Shown here piece after piece: positions 2,092-41,312 of a stretch of 42,597 nt of DNA (within the stretch, counting starts at the first letter, position 1; each line of letters begins with the position of its first letter). This DNA comes from Nanobdellota archaeon (GTDB lineage Archaea > Nanobdellota > Nanobdellia > Pacearchaeales > GW2011-AR1), in contig JAGWGZ010000004.1 in NCBI GenBank assembly GCA_028867075.1, forward strand, positions 1 to 42,597, read 5' to 3'. The position numbers and the translations under genes were made by a program. A model generated the notes under the pieces. That model searched no databases. It had not been told where the DNA came from and saw only the letters and a list, made by a program, of their open reading frames with translations.

Positions 2092-3096
2092 ATGGGTTAT
2101 AGGGAACTGACGGAGAAGGTAATGTCTGGAGAATACCTAGATAAAAGCGAGATTATTGAGATAGTAAGTTTAATCAAAAACAGTTCTCTTTCGGACTTAG
2201 AGTTTGTTGCAATTCTCACAGCAATGCAAACCCGAGATCAACTAAAAGGTATATCTGTTGAAGAGTATAAAAATTTTGTAGAAGCATTCAGAACAAACGA
2301 ATGCCCGGACATTGATAATGCTTTGTGTAACTCTGGAACAGGAGGGGATAAGTTTGAAACTATAAATATAAGCACTATTGCATCTATTATTATAGCTAGC
2401 GGGGGGATTAATGTTCTTAAAAACGGATCCAAAGGTACCAGGGGCGGAAGAGGTTCCAAGGAAGCCTTTGAAGCTTTAGGGATAAATACATTGGAAGATA
2501 TAGATCAGGTATTCGGTGAGGCAAGAAAAGTTGGTATTGGATACTATGATTTTTCAAAGATAGTCCCCATAAAGGGTAGAGCGGGAGTGAAGTCTCCTCT
2601 TAATCTTCTTGGCCCCTTGTGTAACCCAGTACATTTAAAATATAAGGTTATGGGATGTTCTAATAAAGATTTTTCTGAAAAAATAGAACCAATACTCGAG
2701 CAGGTTTGTGAAAATTATATGATAACCTATAATCCTTCTATAGATGAAATTTCTCTGTGTGAGCCAACCATTATCTCTGAAAGGAGAAATCAAGTGAGGT
2801 CTAAGTATACGTTCAATCCAATAGAGCATGGTTTTACAGAGGTTAAGTATTCCGAGATATTATCTCCAAAAGACGATGGGGAAAATGTAGAATTAATGCT
2901 TTCTGTGCTGGGAGGGAAAGAGGGGCCAGCAAGAGAAATAGTCTGTCTAAATGCAGGTGCTGGATTATACCTTGCCTCAAAGGCAAATTCCGTAAGGGAA
3001 GGGTATAAATTAGCTATGGCGCTGATTGACAGCAGAAAGGCCATGAGAAAGCTTATAGAATGGAGAGAGCAACAGAAAGATGGGGCAACTCACTGA
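2092..3096 (+). CDS. TrpD-like anthranilate phosphoribosyltransferase family protein (substrate probably not anthranilate)
   Basis: NSGTGGDKFETINISTIASIIIASGG matches the TrpD GTGGD..T.NIST motif; SPLNLLGPLCNP matches the conserved NLLGPL.NP. The canonical KHGNRxxSS region reads KNGSKGTRGGRGS. Confidence 0.8.
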   Translation: MGYRELTEKVMSGEYLDKSEIIEIVSLIKNSSLSDLEFVAILTAMQTRDQLKGISVEEYKNFVEAFRTNECPDIDNALCNSGTGGDKFETINISTIASIIIASGGINVLKNGSKGTRGGRGSKEAFEALGINTLEDIDQVFGEARKVGIGYYDFSKIVPIKGRAGVKSPLNLLGPLCNPVHLKYKVMGCSNKDFSEKIEPILEQVCENYMITYNPSIDEISLCEPTIISERRNQVRSKYTFNPIEHGFTEVKYSEILSPKDDGENVELMLSVLGGKEGPAREIVCLNAGAGLYLASKANSVREGYKLAMALIDSRKAMRKLIEWREQQKDGATH

Positions 3097-4621
3097 GTTT
3101 AATGAGGTATACGAAAGACTGAGAGCCTCATCCAAGGACTGGAAGAGAATCTCGATAGTGAAGGAGAGTTTGAGTACAATTGTTAGAGATATTCTTAGGT
3201 ATTTACCTTCCCCAAAGGCATTCAAATATATCGGATCTACTGAATCAGGTAGTATGACTAAGATGGGGAGAGATATAGACTGCCTTTTAGCTTTTGAACC
3301 TTATAGCTCAGACTTATTTAGAGAGTCCTTAATGAACCACGGTACCCTTGAGAATATGGTCTTTAGAAAGAGCGATGTTGTACCAGACATAGCAACCGCA
3401 TTTTATGGGGGAGAGAAAATCGGGTTTATTGGAATTGAATACGGAAAAGATCCATTAAACGATCTCCAGGGAGATGTCTGGCTCCATCCTTCATTTAGTA
3501 GACAACATTTAGATCGAACTCAGGTAAGAGATGTTGTTCTAGGAAAAATATTATTTCACGTTCTTGGAATACCCAAAAAGCATTTTGGAGGAGGATTCAC
3601 AATAGAACAGCTTATCTCGCAATATGGAAATTTTGAAAATTTGCTTAATGAATTTTCTCGATCCAAAAAGATTTATGTGGACTTTTCAACAAAATACCGA
3701 GGTCAAAGCAATCTTCTTGTGGTAACATATCCATTTTGTGGTCTAAAGAATCTTGCAGAGAGTTTTACTGCTGAAGAATTGCAAGTCATTTCTGATTATT
3801 CTAAGAGAATTCTAGACTCTCCGAAGTTATTTCTTGAAGATTCCGTGACCATGTTTAATAGAAATCTATGGTCTGAAAGAGCGAAAAAACTTGGTAGTAG
3901 TGAGGCTTTTTCTTCTCCAGATATATACCTTACTAGGAAAGAAAACAGGATAGTTAACAAACTTTTAAGAAAAATTTTACCTAGAAGAATCTTGGATTTA
4001 GGGTGTGCTAATGGCTATAGCACTATTGGAATGACTCGAGGTCTAGATTCTGAGATTATAGGATTAGATAATAACTCCGATGCTATCAGGTTCGCAAAGA
4101 GGTTTGCAAGAGAAAAGCACAATACCTCTTTCGTTATTGGGAATATGGACTCTCTTGACTTTGAAAATGGTTATTTCGACGTTGTAATTCTTAAAAGAGC
4201 ATTAGAAAATATGACCTCAAGGGATTCTCAAAGTAGAGTTATTAACGAAGTTGGAAGAGTTCTTAAAGAAGGAGGAAAACTTTACTTGTTTGACGCTACT
4301 CAAGATAGTATTAATAAGATATCTGATTTAAGAGAAGCTTATGGACTCCCGGGTCTTACTCAACAGAACCACACCTATGTTCTCAGTGAGGAATTATTAC
4401 TCAAGATTGTAAAGGATTCATTTTATTTAGAAAGGATAATAGACAAGACCTCTACTTATCATTTTATAACCCGAATCTTATACCCCCTTGCATTTCGCGT
4501 AATGGGAAAAGACATGGATAAACTAAGATTTGATACCTCCCTACACAGAATATCCTCATTTCTTCCCTCATTGGGGGGTCTTGGGTTATATAAACTATAT
4601 CAATTCAGAAAAAATGAGTAG
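3080..4621 (+). CDS. Fusion: N-terminal archaeal CCA-adding-enzyme-like nucleotidyltransferase + C-terminal class I SAM-dependent methyltransferase
   Basis: N-term GSTESGSMTKMGRDIDCLLAF (NTase GS...DxD) and GGGFTIEQLISQYGNFENLL (cf. archaeal CCA enzyme GFSGYLCELLxxxYGSFxxLL). C-term RILDLGCANGYSTIGMTRGLDSEIIGLDNNSDAIRFAKR...FDVVILKRALENM is a Rossmann MTase. Overlaps the upstream gene by 17 bp. Confidence 0.8.
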   Translation: MGQLTEFNEVYERLRASSKDWKRISIVKESLSTIVRDILRYLPSPKAFKYIGSTESGSMTKMGRDIDCLLAFEPYSSDLFRESLMNHGTLENMVFRKSDVVPDIATAFYGGEKIGFIGIEYGKDPLNDLQGDVWLHPSFSRQHLDRTQVRDVVLGKILFHVLGIPKKHFGGGFTIEQLISQYGNFENLLNEFSRSKKIYVDFSTKYRGQSNLLVVTYPFCGLKNLAESFTAEELQVISDYSKRILDSPKLFLEDSVTMFNRNLWSERAKKLGSSEAFSSPDIYLTRKENRIVNKLLRKILPRRILDLGCANGYSTIGMTRGLDSEIIGLDNNSDAIRFAKRFAREKHNTSFVIGNMDSLDFENGYFDVVILKRALENMTSRDSQSRVINEVGRVLKEGGKLYLFDATQDSINKISDLREAYGLPGLTQQNHTYVLSEELLLKIVKDSFYLERIIDKTSTYHFITRILYPLAFRVMGKDMDKLRFDTSLHRISSFLPSLGGLGLYKLYQFRKNE

Positions 4622-5306
4622 AGTAAAGTCTATAGGATTTGATGGCCTTAATAGTTCTGGAAAGGGAACTCAGATAAGACTTTTCGGGTATTTCCTTGAA
4701 CAAGGGGGAATTCCAAGTATAATCCTTAGAGGAGATGGAACAAGATCTGGTCTCGGAAGAGAGGATTATGATCCCAGATCTGAATGGTGGAAAAGTAACT
4801 ATGAATTCCTTCTTGATAAATCTGATAATCCCATTGAGAAATTGAATCTTCAATATCAACGGCTTGCAAGGGAGTACAGAATTGTAAGAAAAAGAGTAGA
4901 AAAGAGTTGGGGCAGGAGTGTGATAATTCTGGATAGGTCCTATGTTTCCAGATATTTTACTCTTAAGCAGTTTATTCCTCAAATTTCTATGGAAGCCTCT
5001 TTGAAGAGTTATAATCCAAAGAATGGTGAGTTCATACCTCCAATAATTCCTGATCGCACAATAATCCTCAAAGTTCCTAAGTCAAGTTTAATTGAAAGGT
5101 TGCTTAAGAAAGAGGATTTGAGATCTCCAAGAGGGAAAGCGGTAATTAATATAATCGAAAAGAATTACGATCTTTTCATGGAGATCTTATTGGAACTCGA
5201 AGGAAGAAAAGACATAGTCATCATTGATGGTGACCGAGACGAGAAAGATATTAATAATGAGATTATTAGATTCTATGAGCATGAAACGAAAGGTACTCTT
5301 CCTTGA
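4614..5306 (+). CDS. Thymidylate-kinase-like P-loop nucleotide kinase
   Basis: MSRVKSIGFDGLNSSGKGTQIRLFGYFLEQGG (Walker A) and VIILDRSYVSRYFTLKQF (TMK DR-like motif). ATG at 4614 overlaps the upstream stop codon (8 bp), so the ORF-track start at 4530 is probably too early. Confidence 0.7.
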   Translation: MSRVKSIGFDGLNSSGKGTQIRLFGYFLEQGGIPSIILRGDGTRSGLGREDYDPRSEWWKSNYEFLLDKSDNPIEKLNLQYQRLAREYRIVRKRVEKSWGRSVIILDRSYVSRYFTLKQFIPQISMEASLKSYNPKNGEFIPPIIPDRTIILKVPKSSLIERLLKKEDLRSPRGKAVINIIEKNYDLFMEILLELEGRKDIVIIDGDRDEKDINNEIIRFYEHETKGTLP

Positions 5307-5934
5307 TATGGACGGGACACTCTACCCCATAGAGCAAGCATCTTTTTTATGTTCTCCTGTCCACGATCAGATAAGGGAAAGAACTATTAAGTATATCTGT
5401 GAGAAATCTGGGAAGAATTTAGAAGAGGCAAAAAAGATTTTTGAAAAACTTATGAAAGATTATCCGAAATGTTATAGCTTTGGACTTGAAGAGTGGTTTG
5501 GATTTAATCGAAAAGAGTATCTTGATTACTCTTGGAATATGGAAGCTTCAAAACTTATAAAACCTCAGCCTGAACTAAGATATCTGCTTAAAGATTTTTC
5601 TGAAAAATATGATATTTACTTGGTAAGTGATGCTCCCGGAATTTGGATAAAGAATGTAATTAATTTCCTTGGCATAGGCACCTTCCTTAAAGGTCAATTC
5701 AGTGGAACAGATTTGAACAAAAATAAGAAAGAGGGGCTCTTCCGGGAATTATTGATAAAAACCAGCTCGCCTCCCAGAGAGGCATATATGGTGGGAGACG
5801 AGGATGATATTGATATAATGCCGGCTAATAAAGAGGGGATAATAACAATTCATATCACCAAAGATAAGGGTTCTTCCGGCCATTATAAGGCAAATAACCT
5901 TAAAGAGGCAAGAGATATTCTGATGAGTAGTTAA
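5281..5934 (+). CDS. HAD-superfamily hydrolase (phosphatase)
   Basis: MKRKVLFLDMDGTLYP (motif I DxDGT), YLVSDAPG (motif II), VGDEDDIDIMPANKEG (motif IV). Confidence 0.85.
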   Translation: MKRKVLFLDMDGTLYPIEQASFLCSPVHDQIRERTIKYICEKSGKNLEEAKKIFEKLMKDYPKCYSFGLEEWFGFNRKEYLDYSWNMEASKLIKPQPELRYLLKDFSEKYDIYLVSDAPGIWIKNVINFLGIGTFLKGQFSGTDLNKNKKEGLFRELLIKTSSPPREAYMVGDEDDIDIMPANKEGIITIHITKDKGSSGHYKANNLKEARDILMSS

Positions 5935-35839: not shown

Positions 35840-36358
35840 TCAGATTATTTTTTTTAACTCCTTCTTAATCTTCTCAAAATCGCAATAATCATGGGTATTT
35901 CCCGTAAATTTCACAAACCTAAAATCCTTGTTTGGTATCTTTGACAAAAGATTAAACAATTCGTCAAAACTCATAAGTGGATCGTTGTTATTTTGTATAA
36001 AAATTGTAGGGATATTATAAGAATTAAGCAAGCCTAGAATGTTAATCCTATTGTTTTTTGTCCATGAATAAGGAAGCCCCATAAAAATACATCCTTTTGG
36101 ATGAAGATTTCCTTCATTTATAGATTTGAGAGCAAGAACCACCCCTGCAGATTTTGCTATTATTACATAATCTTTTTTGTTACTTAAATAATTCTTCAGT
36201 ATACCACTTTCCACATCAAAATTTATTGCTGGCGTTTCATCCGTCCAATGTTTATAATACTGAATATGTGTTCTTCCGAAAGATTTTATGGAGTCTGACA
36301 AATTCTCTATCCAATCTTTTGTATTGGCATTATTTCCCGATAATAATATTATCTCCAT
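35840..36358 (-). CDS. Small alpha/beta-hydrolase-like protein
   Basis: VIIAKSAGVVLALKSI (nucleophile elbow-like), IPTIFIQNNNDPLMSFDEL, TGNTHDY; overlaps upstream gene by 10 bp. Confidence 0.65.
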   Translation of the reverse strand: MEIILLSGNNANTKDWIENLSDSIKSFGRTHIQYYKHWTDETPAINFDVESGILKNYLSNKKDYVIIAKSAGVVLALKSINEGNLHPKGCIFMGLPYSWTKNNRINILGLLNSYNIPTIFIQNNNDPLMSFDELFNLLSKIPNKDFRFVKFTGNTHDYCDFEKIKKELKKII

Positions 36359-37014
36359 ATTTTATTAGATCTTATATATTTTTTATTATTTTTTAACATT
36401 TCTTTATTATCAAACTCAGGGGGAGCTTTTGAAATAACTCCTCTTATGCTCTTAACACGGGACAATCTTTTCAATGTCTCTTCAAGCTTATTGGCATATT
36501 TTTCTTCCTCTTGGAACTTTATAATCTCATCAGAGATGATCATAGGATGCTGTAAGACTAGCTCTTCTTTTTGAGAGATTATGTTGTTCTCAGATAGAGA
36601 TACTTTCGAGTTTTCGGTTGAAATTTCTGGAGGATATAAGGATACTACCCAGTCTCCAGTTTTGTCATGCATTTTTATTATCTTCTTTAGATGATTGGAA
36701 GAAATCGGCTGATTTCCTGCTAGAAGAAGAAAAGGACCATTCAAATGTTCTTCTGAAATCTTAATTCCTTTTCTGAAGCTCTCTGGAGAATTGATTAATA
36801 CTATATTAGGACCAAAGTAATTTAATGCTTCTCTTTTTATGAGTTCTCTGTTTTTTTTATTGCAGACAAGTATTATCTCTTTTATATTTAAGTCTTTCAG
36901 TGAACTCAACAAATAAGAGATTATACTTCTACCTTTATAGATATAAAGGGATTTGTCTACTCCACCAAATCTCGTAGATTTTCCGCCACACATTATAATG
37001 GCCTTGTATATCAT
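36349..37014 (-). CDS. MobA/CobY-like nucleotidyltransferase
   Basis: MIYKAIIMCGGKSTRFGGVDKSLYIYKGRSIISYLLSSLKDLNIKEIILVCNKKN: GGxSxRxG-K signature. Confidence 0.8.
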   Translation of the reverse strand: MIYKAIIMCGGKSTRFGGVDKSLYIYKGRSIISYLLSSLKDLNIKEIILVCNKKNRELIKREALNYFGPNIVLINSPESFRKGIKISEEHLNGPFLLLAGNQPISSNHLKKIIKMHDKTGDWVVSLYPPEISTENSKVSLSENNIISQKEELVLQHPMIISDEIIKFQEEEKYANKLEETLKRLSRVKSIRGVISKAPPEFDNKEMLKNNKKYIRSNKIWR

Positions 37015-38210
37015 CTCAGATAATCATTCACCAATTTAGCTGTTGAGGGGGTTATGGGCTCACTCATATTTACTGCCTTCAGATATTCTTTGCCAAGGAT
37101 TTCTTTATTTGAATCTGTCCAGTCTTTATTATCTCGGTAATGGTTTATTTTATTGCTTATTCTCCTAAATTCTTGATTCAATTCAGCTAACACTTTAGGA
37201 AAATCAAAATTATCCATATCTTTAATATAACTTTCACTCGGTTTTTGCTGAGAAGAAGCAATTCCCTTAAACGGTTTCCTCATGTTAGCTACAAGATACA
37301 CAAAATTTCTTGCAGATTTAAGTTTGTTTTTTTCTAAGAAGACTTTTTGTTTGGACTCTGAATAAGATGACAATAATAAATACCTTATCATATCAGAATG
37401 GTACTCATCTTTTATTATCTCCTTAAGATCCCATTCACTTATGCCCCCTTCCGGAATAATTTTAGGCCAAATTATAATCTCGTCCATTCCAGGAGAAGAT
37501 TCCAGAGCTGATCTGCATAAAATTCTGAGGAAGATATATTTTGTCATGACACTATTTGATCCCGCAATAGTATAATCTGACTCTGGATATTTATGATCCC
37601 ACAAATTTGCCAAAACAAAAAGAGGCCCTATATTCTGCCCTCTTAATGGATTTTTCAAAGAGTAACCTGTGGGTTTGGAAATTTGAATTAAATTAGAGGT
37701 ATTCTCTCTAATCATCCTCTCAAGTTCTCCTTCAATTCGGGAAGGATGGAGCTTTATCCCTTTAATAAATCCCTGAAGATCGCTGTGACTTTTTATATCT
37801 GCAGGACTTAAAAAATAGGATCCATTAATTCTCTTTATATATCCTGATTCATAAAGTTCTTTGAAATCTTCACTTACTCCTTCGCCAACATTTTTGTCTG
37901 TGTCGGTAAGCAAATCCAAAGAAGAAAGGTTTAACATACCCCGTACAGTATCACTGTAGACTGTATTCAGATTTGCTATTTCTAAATCTTCCGCAGAGTT
38001 AATACCTGAGCCTGAATCTTTTAATAGTAAGTCTCCCCGTCTTCCATAGAAATTATAAGATCTTCCTGGAAAAATTGATTCTTGACCTTTGAATTTTCTT
38101 CTATACCTACTTACAACATCAAGTAAAACCAAAAAGAAAGCATGTCCTATATGTGTTTTGGCATTTGTATAGATTCCCAGTGGAGGATTAGCAATAATTC
38201 TTTGCTTCAT
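37011..38210 (-). CDS. Divergent truncated class I aminoacyl-tRNA synthetase-like protein (Met/Leu/Ile/Val-type fold, HIGH present, KMSKS absent)
   Basis: IANPPLGIYTNAKTHIGHAFFLVLLDVVSRYRRKFKG and DYTIAGSNSVMTKYIFLRILCRS...DMIRYLLLSS...KLKSARNFVYLVANMRKPF; position expected for KMSKS reads PEGGISEWDLKEI. Confidence 0.75.
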   Translation of the reverse strand: MKQRIIANPPLGIYTNAKTHIGHAFFLVLLDVVSRYRRKFKGQESIFPGRSYNFYGRRGDLLLKDSGSGINSAEDLEIANLNTVYSDTVRGMLNLSSLDLLTDTDKNVGEGVSEDFKELYESGYIKRINGSYFLSPADIKSHSDLQGFIKGIKLHPSRIEGELERMIRENTSNLIQISKPTGYSLKNPLRGQNIGPLFVLANLWDHKYPESDYTIAGSNSVMTKYIFLRILCRSALESSPGMDEIIIWPKIIPEGGISEWDLKEIIKDEYHSDMIRYLLLSSYSESKQKVFLEKNKLKSARNFVYLVANMRKPFKGIASSQQKPSESYIKDMDNFDFPKVLAELNQEFRRISNKINHYRDNKDWTDSNKEILGKEYLKAVNMSEPITPSTAKLVNDYLR

Positions 38211-38211
38211 A

Positions 38212-40098
38212 CTATAGACTTTTTTCTACTAATTTAGATATCCCCTCTCCGTCAAATTCAAAATATTTAATCAAATCCTCCAAATCTCCTGAAGTTCCGA
38301 ATTCAAAACCATGAGATACTATCTTTGAAGGATAATTACGTCCAGATTTCAAGATTGCTTCAGATATTGGATAAGATAATGATCTCGGATTTCCATTGTA
38401 GACACTAACTAATGGAGCCTGTGGAACAACATTACTTACGAAGTATTCGCCCAGAGTTTCACGATTTATCACATTTATTAGCCTTGATTCTATTCCTTTT
38501 GATTCCAAGATATCTGCTGCATCAAGACATCCTTTCATTGTTAGACCATTTGATACGATCGTCACACTCGGATTTCTTCCCTCCCTCACTACATAGTCAG
38601 TTGTATTTCTTTTATCTGAAGTTATATTAGGCAAAGGGCCATTATGGACCCTGATGTAGGTGGGACCCAATCTGTAATTAAAGGCAGCATTCAAGGAATT
38701 GAACAAATCAGGAGCATCCGCGGGTTCAAGGCATCTGATGCCTGGCATAAGAGTCAACATTCCAGATTGCCCAGATGGCTGATGGGTCTGACCATTCTTA
38801 GCACCCCCTATACCTCCCATATTACCTATAATGACAATTGGAGATTTCCCTTGAGAAAGAACATTCAATTGGTCTGCATTTCTGTACAAAAACTCTTCTC
38901 CGGCGTCAATTAATATTCCCGAACTTTTATCTGTGACTGCTAATCCATGAGCCATTGCAGTCATATGTTGCTCCCTTAATCCCACATCAATAAATCTTGT
39001 TTTGGGATTGTCAAGACCCAATACTGGGATTACATCCTCTCTTATTAAATCAGCAGTCAATACATAGAGATTATTGTCAGAATTTGCGAAAGTATAGTTT
39101 AGTTCTCGTATATAATCAACTAAAGCACCAAGGAGATTATGATAATCCACCCTTGCGACATTAAAGTCCAGTTCAAGAGGTTTAGGATTTTTCAAGAAGA
39201 CTTCATTAGGTTGAGGAATATCTCTACGAACTCGACTCAATATCTGTTTAATATCCTTCCCTTCTAGGAGAAGGTTTTGGTTGTTTATTGCAGATTCCAC
39301 ATCTTCTATTTTTGCGGTACTCACTGTATGATAACCGCTATAGTGGTTTTCACATCCTCCTATGCCCTTCCCCTTTATTGTATTCGCAATAATCATTGTG
39401 GGAGATCTCTGACCTGAGTTGACCGAATTAAATACATCTTCGATATCCTCAAAGTCATGGCCATCCAAGATCTCTCTTACATCCCACCCATATCCTTCCC
39501 AGATTTTCTTAATATCAGAAAGATTGTCGGAGTAGCTTGTAGGATGCGAAAGCTGTTTTTTATTTTTGTCAATTATCACAATTAAGTTATCAAGACCAAG
39601 GTTTCCCGCGTGCCGCGCAGCTTCGCTTACATTTCCTTCCTGTTCCTCCCCATCTCCAAGAAATACATAGGTCTTAAAATCCAGATTATTGGTCTTTGCT
39701 GCAAAAGAGGCTCCTACTCCATAAGAAAGAAGCATTCCGAGAGACCCGCTTGGAGTGATATCAACCCCCGGGACTTTACTCATATCCTCATGACCTTGTA
39801 GTCTGGAATTCAAACTTCTGTAAGTTAATAATTCAGAAGGATCTATCCATCCAAGCATTGAGAAAATCTTGTATCTAAGAGGGCCAAGATGGCCTCTTAC
39901 CAGTACCCTATCCCTATTTGGGTCATTAGGATTTTCAGGATTGTACCTAAGAATTCCTCCAAAATAGAGGGATGTCATAAGTTCAACGGAAGAAGAACAA
40001 CCCCCGGTATGGCCACTTTTTGCATTTTTTGTGATAAAGAAGATATCTCTTCTTATCTCTTGACTTAGAGATTCTAACTCAAGTTTACTTAAACTCAT
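38212..40098 (-). CDS. Transketolase (full-length, single chain)
   Basis: SGHTGGCSSSVELMTSLYFGGILRY, GDGEEQEGNVSEAARHAGNLGLDNLIVIIDKNK (TPP motif), GLREQHMTAMAHGLAV, IGGAKNGQTHQPSGQSGML. Confidence 0.93.
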   Translation of the reverse strand: MSLSKLELESLSQEIRRDIFFITKNAKSGHTGGCSSSVELMTSLYFGGILRYNPENPNDPNRDRVLVRGHLGPLRYKIFSMLGWIDPSELLTYRSLNSRLQGHEDMSKVPGVDITPSGSLGMLLSYGVGASFAAKTNNLDFKTYVFLGDGEEQEGNVSEAARHAGNLGLDNLIVIIDKNKKQLSHPTSYSDNLSDIKKIWEGYGWDVREILDGHDFEDIEDVFNSVNSGQRSPTMIIANTIKGKGIGGCENHYSGYHTVSTAKIEDVESAINNQNLLLEGKDIKQILSRVRRDIPQPNEVFLKNPKPLELDFNVARVDYHNLLGALVDYIRELNYTFANSDNNLYVLTADLIREDVIPVLGLDNPKTRFIDVGLREQHMTAMAHGLAVTDKSSGILIDAGEEFLYRNADQLNVLSQGKSPIVIIGNMGGIGGAKNGQTHQPSGQSGMLTLMPGIRCLEPADAPDLFNSLNAAFNYRLGPTYIRVHNGPLPNITSDKRNTTDYVVREGRNPSVTIVSNGLTMKGCLDAADILESKGIESRLINVINRETLGEYFVSNVVPQAPLVSVYNGNPRSLSYPISEAILKSGRNYPSKIVSHGFEFGTSGDLEDLIKYFEFDGEGISKLVEKSL

Positions 40099-40114: not shown

Positions 40115-40135
40115 AGTGATTTATAAATATTCACT
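40115..40135. promoter_or_regulatory. Palindromic element overlapping the TATA region of the transketolase operon
   Basis: AGTGATTTATAAATATTCACT: AGTGA/TCACT half-sites flanking a TATA-like core, ~17-37 bp upstream of the 40098 start codon. Confidence 0.45.
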
Positions 40136-40265
40136 TTAGAAGAGTAACATAATGACACTAATAATTTTGTCAAAAAGTTAGGGAACAATAGCAAGAGTTA
40201 TATCTGTGGAAGCCCATGGTCCTTTTCCCAAAGCCTTAAAAACAATTCCGAATAGGTTTTATCAT

Positions 40266-40382
40266 AGCGGGGTAGAGCAGCCTGGAGTGCTCGCGAGGCC
40301 CATAAGTGAATTCGCGGAATTCCCATTCCACGTCAAGACGCGGAAACCTCGAGGTCGTGCGGTTCAAATCCCACCCCCGCTA
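40266..40382 (+). tRNA. tRNA-Met(CAT), probably initiator, with ~41-nt intron at 37/38 (about 40305-40345)
   Basis: Acceptor AGCGGGG/CCCCGCT with A1-U72; D-arm GAGC/GCTC; anticodon stem CGAGG/CCTCG with loop CCCATAA; TTCAAAT T-loop; A73. T-stem requires one bulged C. Confidence 0.8.
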
Positions 40383-40409
40383 TGTTTTGAAAAATAAGAA
40401 TATAAAAGC

Positions 40410-40592: not shown

Positions 40593-41312
40593 TTATTCAG
40601 AAAAGAAATCAATTATCTCTGCCAAAATAGAATCAGGAATTTTGCTTAAAGTAATATGCCCTGAATCGCATACTCTGACCTTAATGGAGTTTTTTTTACC
40701 AAATTCAGTCACATCCTTCTCTTTGATTTGATCATCATCTTTTCCAGCTATTATCATGATATTGGAAGGGTTTATTATCTTGCAGTTTTCCAAATTCCAG
40801 ATTTTATCCTCTATAAGTCTCTGCCAATCTCTTGAATCAAAGCGATAATTCTCTACCTCGGAAGTTTTTAGATGATTTCCGAGACTCTCTATCCCCTCGA
40901 CTTTCCTAAAGCTTATTACGGGAGAGACAACGCAAATTTTATTAGGGGGAAATTTGGTGGCAATGTCAAGTGCGACTCCTCCTCCAAAACTTGATCCCAA
41001 AAGAAAAACTTTTCCCGCCTTATATTTTTTGTTTTCCAGATTTCTGCCTCTTTTTAACATTTCAATAAACTCTATGATTGCTTCACTCGGCGCCCTTTCC
41101 AAAAATCTACCTCCTGATTCCCATGTACCTTCATATCTTGGAAAAAATATATCATAATCCTGCTCTGACAATTTTTTCATTAACTGGTTCTTGCTTAACG
41201 GATTGCTGGGCAGACCATCTAACAAGATTATCGTTCCTCTTGAAGGAACTTCCTCGGATAGTGCATAAGCAAAAAACAAGTTCTTATATTCCGATGAATT
41301 TATTATTGTCAT
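40593..41312 (-). CDS. Alpha/beta hydrolase (serine-hydrolase type)
   Basis: GKVFLLGSSFGGGVALDIATKF (GxSxGG), IMIIAGKDDDQI (Asp), CDSGHITLSK (His). Confidence 0.8.
   Translation of the reverse strand: MTIINSSEYKNLFFAYALSEEVPSRGTIILLDGLPSNPLSKNQLMKKLSEQDYDIFFPRYEGTWESGGRFLERAPSEAIIEFIEMLKRGRNLENKKYKAGKVFLLGSSFGGGVALDIATKFPPNKICVVSPVISFRKVEGIESLGNHLKTSEVENYRFDSRDWQRLIEDKIWNLENCKIINPSNIMIIAGKDDDQIKEKDVTEFGKKNSIKVRVCDSGHITLSKIPDSILAEIIDFFSE

Follow-up and report, generated by a model that had tools for sequence, protein, structure and literature searches.

MshC of mycothiol synthesis is a paralog of cysteinyl-tRNA synthetase (CysRS) with intact catalytic motifs, and cyclodipeptide synthases consist only of catalytic domains that resemble those of tyrosyl- or tryptophanyl-tRNA synthetases (TyrRS/TrpRS). 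Closer to the case described here are PyrN, Spb40 and Tri28, paralogs of methionyl-tRNA synthetase (MetRS) from hydrazine and N-N bond pathways (Iyer and Aravind 2010, PMC2922099; PMC8664883); PyrN/Spb40-type paralogs keep the adenylation residues and are always accompanied by a cupin and a lysine N6-hydroxylase (PMC2922099; PMC8664883). The present study concerns a protein related to class I aminoacyl-tRNA synthetases (aaRS), encoded in a four-gene operon on contig JAGWGZ010000004.1 (42,597 nucleotides, analysed whole and called the window), which belongs to a 575-kb metagenome-assembled genome (MAG) of a Woesearchaeota-type DPANN archaeon, 88.7% complete. With about even confidence, the operon is read as the local version of an accessory cassette, patchily distributed and probably moved horizontally among DPANN archaea, in which a MetRS derivative that is not a synthetase acts with a nucleotidyltransferase (NTase) and an alpha/beta hydrolase towards a sugar-like or hydroxy-acid product.

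A profile of six relatives of the aaRS-like protein, compared with solved structures, gave MetRS as its first match (1.2e-7). Foldseek of a low-confidence AlphaFold model matched MetRS over the full length (3e-10, with the top 32 matches all MetRS), which predicts a MetRS fold across the entire protein. A single-sequence search of genome contigs with the protein yielded no relatives, and an alignment-based search yielded three, in Woesearchaeota or Nanoarchaeota MAGs. Orthologs were recognised in six genomes (G124, G013, G379, G490, G419 and G501); these and the window copy are the seven close members, and three divergent proteins (G172, G474 and G406/G436) bring the total to ten. No description of the family was found in the limited selection of literature searched. 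A phage collection held no match to the protein, leaving a phage origin without support.

The seven close members were aligned against the host genome's own MetRS, which is encoded elsewhere and is intact, with HIGH and KISKS motifs. The KMSKS segment is absent from all seven (nine of ten overall), and an exact HIGH occurs in the window copy only. Also missing from the seven are the methionine-pocket residues Trp253 and His301, the zinc knuckle, and the anticodon-reading residues Asn391 and Trp461; a CxxC..CxxC knuckle is kept by the G474 member only. The column of MetRS Asp52, the residue that binds the substrate through its alpha-amino group, is Asn in all ten proteins (Asn53 in the window), and N53 is one of just three invariant columns, the others being G22 and D31. 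Ser or Cys stands two residues before N53 in the seven close members. Because the defining residues of MetRS (HIGH with KMSKS, Asp52, methionine pocket, zinc knuckle and anticodon residues) are lost, the family, judged by them, does not consist of tRNA synthetases. The gene is real and constrained, since the reading frames are open in all ten loci and the dN/dS ratio (nonsynonymous to synonymous substitution) is about 0.2 in the closest pair, G013 and G501 (0.13/0.68); the hydrolase and Pol-beta-type NTase genes of the same pair give 0.09/0.98 and 0.19/0.62, respectively. Together with the intact MetRS elsewhere, this rules out a decayed methionyl- or leucyl-tRNA synthetase pseudogene, a possibility that the earlier note on this DNA had raised against its own proposal; the gene is a conserved paralog under purifying selection. 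A tRNA- or methionine-specific function is not supported either, as the recognition residues are gone and no tRNA is consistently nearby.

The hydrazine-pathway paralogs are the nearest precedent. Like PyrN, Spb40 and Tri28, the family is MetRS-derived, apparently mobile, found in a genome that also has an intact MetRS, and located within variable biosynthetic operons. Unlike them, it has lost KMSKS, carries Asn in place of Asp52, and has a hydrolase and an NTase as partners. Neither a cupin (fused or adjacent) nor a lysine N6-hydroxylase was found among the Pfam-scanned neighbours, and a cupin/hydrazine pathway was rejected on that ground; the family is not a member of this group. The other two systems are analogies. 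MshC, too, has a class I aaRS fold that was taken into small-molecule metabolism and is found next to sugar enzymes, but its CysRS origin and intact motifs differ from the MetRS origin and degenerate motifs seen here. Cyclodipeptide synthases share a class I aaRS-derived fold without HIGH or KMSKS, but are catalytic domains alone, whereas the window family retains the MetRS C-terminal helical region. The family resembles a recruited aaRS and belongs to neither.

It could be argued from these systems that the MetRS-like protein handles an aminoacyl group, either as free aminoacyl-AMP (as PyrN/Spb40 and MshC) or from charged tRNA (as cyclodipeptide synthases), for transfer to a product that is a sugar or a peptide. 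Such chemistry would agree with the precedent of MetRS paralogs in natural-product pathways (PMC2922099, PMC8664883), with the exact HIGH of the window copy, with the HLGN and KMSKY-like motifs of the G172 member, and with the Ser/Cys near N53. It is judged unlikely, given that KMSKS is lost in nine and the amino-binding Asp in all ten proteins, that the methionine-pocket and anticodon residues are lost as well, that neither cupin nor lysine hydroxylase occurs among the neighbours examined, and that tRNA genes are not consistently near. The earlier note had proposed that a sugar-derived moiety is joined with an amino-acid-like unit, citing MshC as an example of a metabolic ligase. That part of the proposal fares poorly: since KMSKS is deleted, HIGH is unconserved and Asp is replaced by Asn throughout, a ligase like MshC is not the preferred model, and amino-acid activation by the protein is doubtful.

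The recurring genomic unit consists of the aaRS-like gene, an NTase and a hydrolase, while the transketolase and MobA-type NTase are local to the window. Of the seven loci that the aaRS search gave, six have a hydrolase of one family next to the aaRS-like gene or nearly so, and four (G490, G013, G501 and G419) have a Pol-beta-type NTase immediately beside it or one gene off. The window member of this hydrolase family (239 aa), overlooked in the earlier note, is encoded 0.5 kb upstream of the operon and in the same orientation; a probable tRNA gene separates the two. It has the nucleophile elbow (GxSxG) and Asp/His expected of the alpha/beta hydrolase superfamily: the family signature is PxxxGxxxSxGxF, the nucleophile motif GxSFG (GSSFG in the window), and the acid and base are Asp193 and a His located by alignment. 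No Pol-beta NTase was found elsewhere in the window genome, although an empty search of this kind is weak evidence. Two loci (G124 and G379) include a MoaA-like radical SAM protein and a DUF62 protein. Downstream of the aaRS-like gene in G419 (L085:9838-11365) are a 185-aa protein without Pfam match, whose N-terminus appears by eye to be nucleoside-diphosphate-kinase-like, and then a 326-aa Pol-beta protein.

Transketolase was rejected as a conserved partner, as none adjoins the aaRS-like gene at the nine loci outside the window; the pairing occurs at one of ten aaRS-like loci and one of three loci with this type of transketolase, so that the co-occurrence anticipated in the earlier note does not extend beyond the window. 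Co-occurrence with an NTase was borne out for the Pol-beta type and not for the MobA type. The neighbourhood is thus conserved, for a different hydrolase and NTase from those first proposed.

When the hydrolase profile was run against 382 class genomes and the surrounding open reading frames (ORFs) were clustered, the divergent aaRS-like genes of G172, G474 and G406/G436 emerged as hydrolase neighbours. This search biases any count of aaRS-like/hydrolase pairs, and the unbiased figure is the six of seven given above. The divergent proteins align in clean register around the Asn, and match the joint profile strongly, as they must by construction. In G474 the set consists of Pol-beta, aaRS-like, hydrolase and class II aldolase genes, the same set being present in G490; in G172 the aaRS-like gene is found with a radical SAM gene and a Pol-beta/NUDIX fusion. 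The phylogenetic sample is narrow, and the evidence is drawn from MAGs. Broken copies were seen at L114:7534-8280, where the G160 hydrolase has seven stops, and at L119:2828-4013, with remnants of hydrolase and Pol-beta genes in G050, suggesting loss of the cassette. Between two MAGs from different families (G406/G436; L112, L110), segments of 2.6 kb and 0.9 kb that carry the cassette are 99-100% identical in DNA sequence, which may reflect recent transfer or mis-binning. At L120:5971-8368, a hydrolase of the same family overlaps a 542-aa protein without Pfam match, the N-terminus of which (LLNTNIGEIILAKQIADSAG) is faintly HIGH-like.

In the window, the G+C content of the short hydrolase, NTase and aaRS-like genes of the operon (0.303, 0.315 and 0.341) is in each case below that of all 30 other long ORFs (minimum 0.345, mean 0.404), which suggests acquisition. 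Low G+C and a patchy, probably mobile distribution would also suit a defence or conflict cassette, whose NTase, aaRS-like protein and hydrolase would produce or sense a signalling nucleotide or carry out RNA modification, and the Pol-beta NTases and radical SAM protein weakly match PADLOC candidate or viperin models. However, the hydrolase and MobA-like NTase have no PADLOC match, the aaRS-like protein matches only Csn2 (19.6 bits), nothing matched in phage records, and the class II aldolase, transketolase and NUDIX partners fit biosynthesis better, so that this explanation is considered very improbable.

The transketolase-like enzyme was compared with human transketolase and 27 full-length DPANN transketolases. 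It has the full three-domain thiamine diphosphate (ThDP) architecture of TktA/TKT, and keeps the ThDP and catalytic residues (His30, His70, His103, GDG, Glu376 and His257). The equivalents of human R318, S345, H416, D424 and R474, the residues that bind the phosphate and hydroxyls of the substrate, are all replaced, whereas the 27 other DPANN enzymes retain this set (with Lys for R474 in one). Most of the replacements are shared by the transketolases of G195 (47% identical) and G484, both of which have an Arg near the R474 position. The neighbours in G484 are two glycosyltransferases, a GHMP kinase, an APH-type kinase and a nucleoside-diphosphate-sugar epimerase. In G195 (L082:5633-11174) the cluster, with mostly overlapping genes, encodes a NUDIX protein, a histone-deacetylase-fold protein, another alpha/beta hydrolase and a 462-aa protein that was ruled out as aaRS-like by profile comparison. 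The residues support a specialised enzyme rather than one of the pentose-phosphate pathway, and its likely role would be C2- (two-carbon) or acyl-transfer on a substrate that lacks a terminal phosphate.

Since no other Transketolase_N protein was found in the incomplete host MAG, the enzyme could be forced into a housekeeping role, and no linkage between transketolase and aaRS-like genes exists elsewhere. Both points fit ordinary metabolism, in which a divergent transketolase of the pentose-phosphate pathway shares an operon by chance with a MetRS duplicate that is drifting. We regard this as quite unlikely, given the loss of phosphate and acceptor residues that other DPANN transketolases keep, a loss repeated in G195 and G484, and the purifying selection and recurring partners of the aaRS-like family.

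Under the preferred reading of a DPANN accessory cassette, the transketolase-like enzyme would make or extend a ketose-like carbon skeleton lacking a phosphate handle, which an NTase (Pol-beta type elsewhere, MobA type here) would activate with a nucleotide. The MetRS-fold protein may bind or couple a nucleotide-linked or adenylated acid, predicted to have no free alpha-amino group because Asn replaces the amino-binding Asp, and the hydrolase could release an acyl or ester group or transfer it. Such a pathway would yield a small molecule of modified sugar-like or hydroxy-acid type, with tailoring enzymes that vary by lineage. A surface glycan is a plausible destination; five glycosyltransferase-2 matches are present in the host genome, none of them in the operon. 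Of the cryptic small-molecule or glycoconjugate pathway first proposed, the dedicated, non-translational cassette is supported (a conserved paralog, a specialised transketolase, and the glycan context in G484), and the amino-acid ligation is not. A fuller version, considered less likely, is that of an undescribed MetRS-derived family, marked by an invariant Asn for the amino-binding Asp. Its substrate would be a hydroxy- or sugar acid without an amino group, or the nucleotide adduct of such an acid, and it would work within a three-part DPANN module with an NTase and a dedicated alpha/beta hydrolase, the window transketolase acting on non-phosphorylated sugars.

Several observations weigh against the cassette reading. 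The transketolase and MobA-like NTase adjoin the aaRS-like gene in the window only, and the hydrolase family occurs without an aaRS-like neighbour in four genomes (G106, G135, G343 and G413). The three divergent aaRS-like proteins match the core family weakly, with pairwise E-values of 2e-4 to 0.02 from single comparisons. The AlphaFold model has a mean pLDDT (predicted local distance difference test) of 55. Lastly, the motifs kept by the G172 protein indicate that some members may still use ATP.

The features of the locus are listed in Table 1. The four operon genes abut or overlap on the minus strand as the earlier note had described, with a 1-bp gap between the transketolase and aaRS-like genes, a 4-bp overlap between the aaRS-like and NTase genes, and a 10-bp overlap between the NTase and short hydrolase genes.

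Table 1. Genes and putative promoter element of the operon and its upstream flank (window coordinates)
Feature	Coordinates	Strand	Pfam match or position
Short alpha/beta hydrolase, 172 aa	35840..36358	-	weak Abhydrolase_11
MobA-like NTP transferase, 221 aa	36349..37014	-	NTP_transf_3 1e-12
Class I aaRS-like protein of MetRS origin, 399 aa; HIGH kept, KMSKS deleted, Asp52 replaced by Asn53	37011..38210	-	tRNA-synt_1g 1e-6
Transketolase-like ThDP enzyme, 628 aa; subfamily predicted to lack the sugar-phosphate site	38212..40098	-	Transketolase_N 2e-37, Transket_pyr 2e-19
TATA-like element TTTATAAAT	40119..40127	-	20 bases before transketolase ATG
Alpha/beta hydrolase, 239 aa; recurrent aaRS-like neighbour family	40593..41312	-	Hydrolase_4 above cut-off

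The spacing of TTTATAAAT from the start codon would be as in an archaeal TATA box that drives a leaderless mRNA; this is only suggestive, because the 9-mer is common in the window (8 occurrences against 1.9 expected). The MobA-like NTase shares the NTP-binding loop GGKSTRFGGxDK with MobA/CobY-like NTP_transf_3 enzymes, but has GNQP for GDxP and scores below every NCBIfam equivalog cut-off (MobA, 42 bits against a cut-off of 164). The short hydrolase matches Abhydrolase_11 below the cut-off (4e-4), with a readable Ser/Asp/His set. Between the transketolase and 239-aa hydrolase genes is a probable intron-bearing tRNA gene (40264-40384, plus strand), which default ARAGORN missed and which was called only with introns allowed; its anticodon is uncertain (CAU by reading, CGA by ARAGORN), and an Rfam search of the interval between these two genes returned no RNA, this tRNA included. 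A second low-G+C operon with end-overlapping genes is present at 2092-5934 (plus strand), encoding a Glycos_transf_3 protein of the nucleoside phosphorylase/phosphoribosyltransferase type, a 513-aa protein in which a weak CCA-transferase-like domain is combined with a SAM (S-adenosylmethionine) methyltransferase domain, a 230-aa protein that matches no Pfam family, and a HAD phosphatase.

Recruitment of aaRS paralogs to metabolism is already known, and the aaRS-like family would be a further independent case, in which the switch from Asp to Asn predicts a substrate without a free alpha-amino group. The defining residues should ease recognition of the family in other genomes and guard against misannotation as MetRS or transketolase. 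Genome-reduced DPANN archaea are thought to be poor in biosynthesis; the cassette is nonetheless maintained in them by selection, and seems to pass from lineage to lineage.

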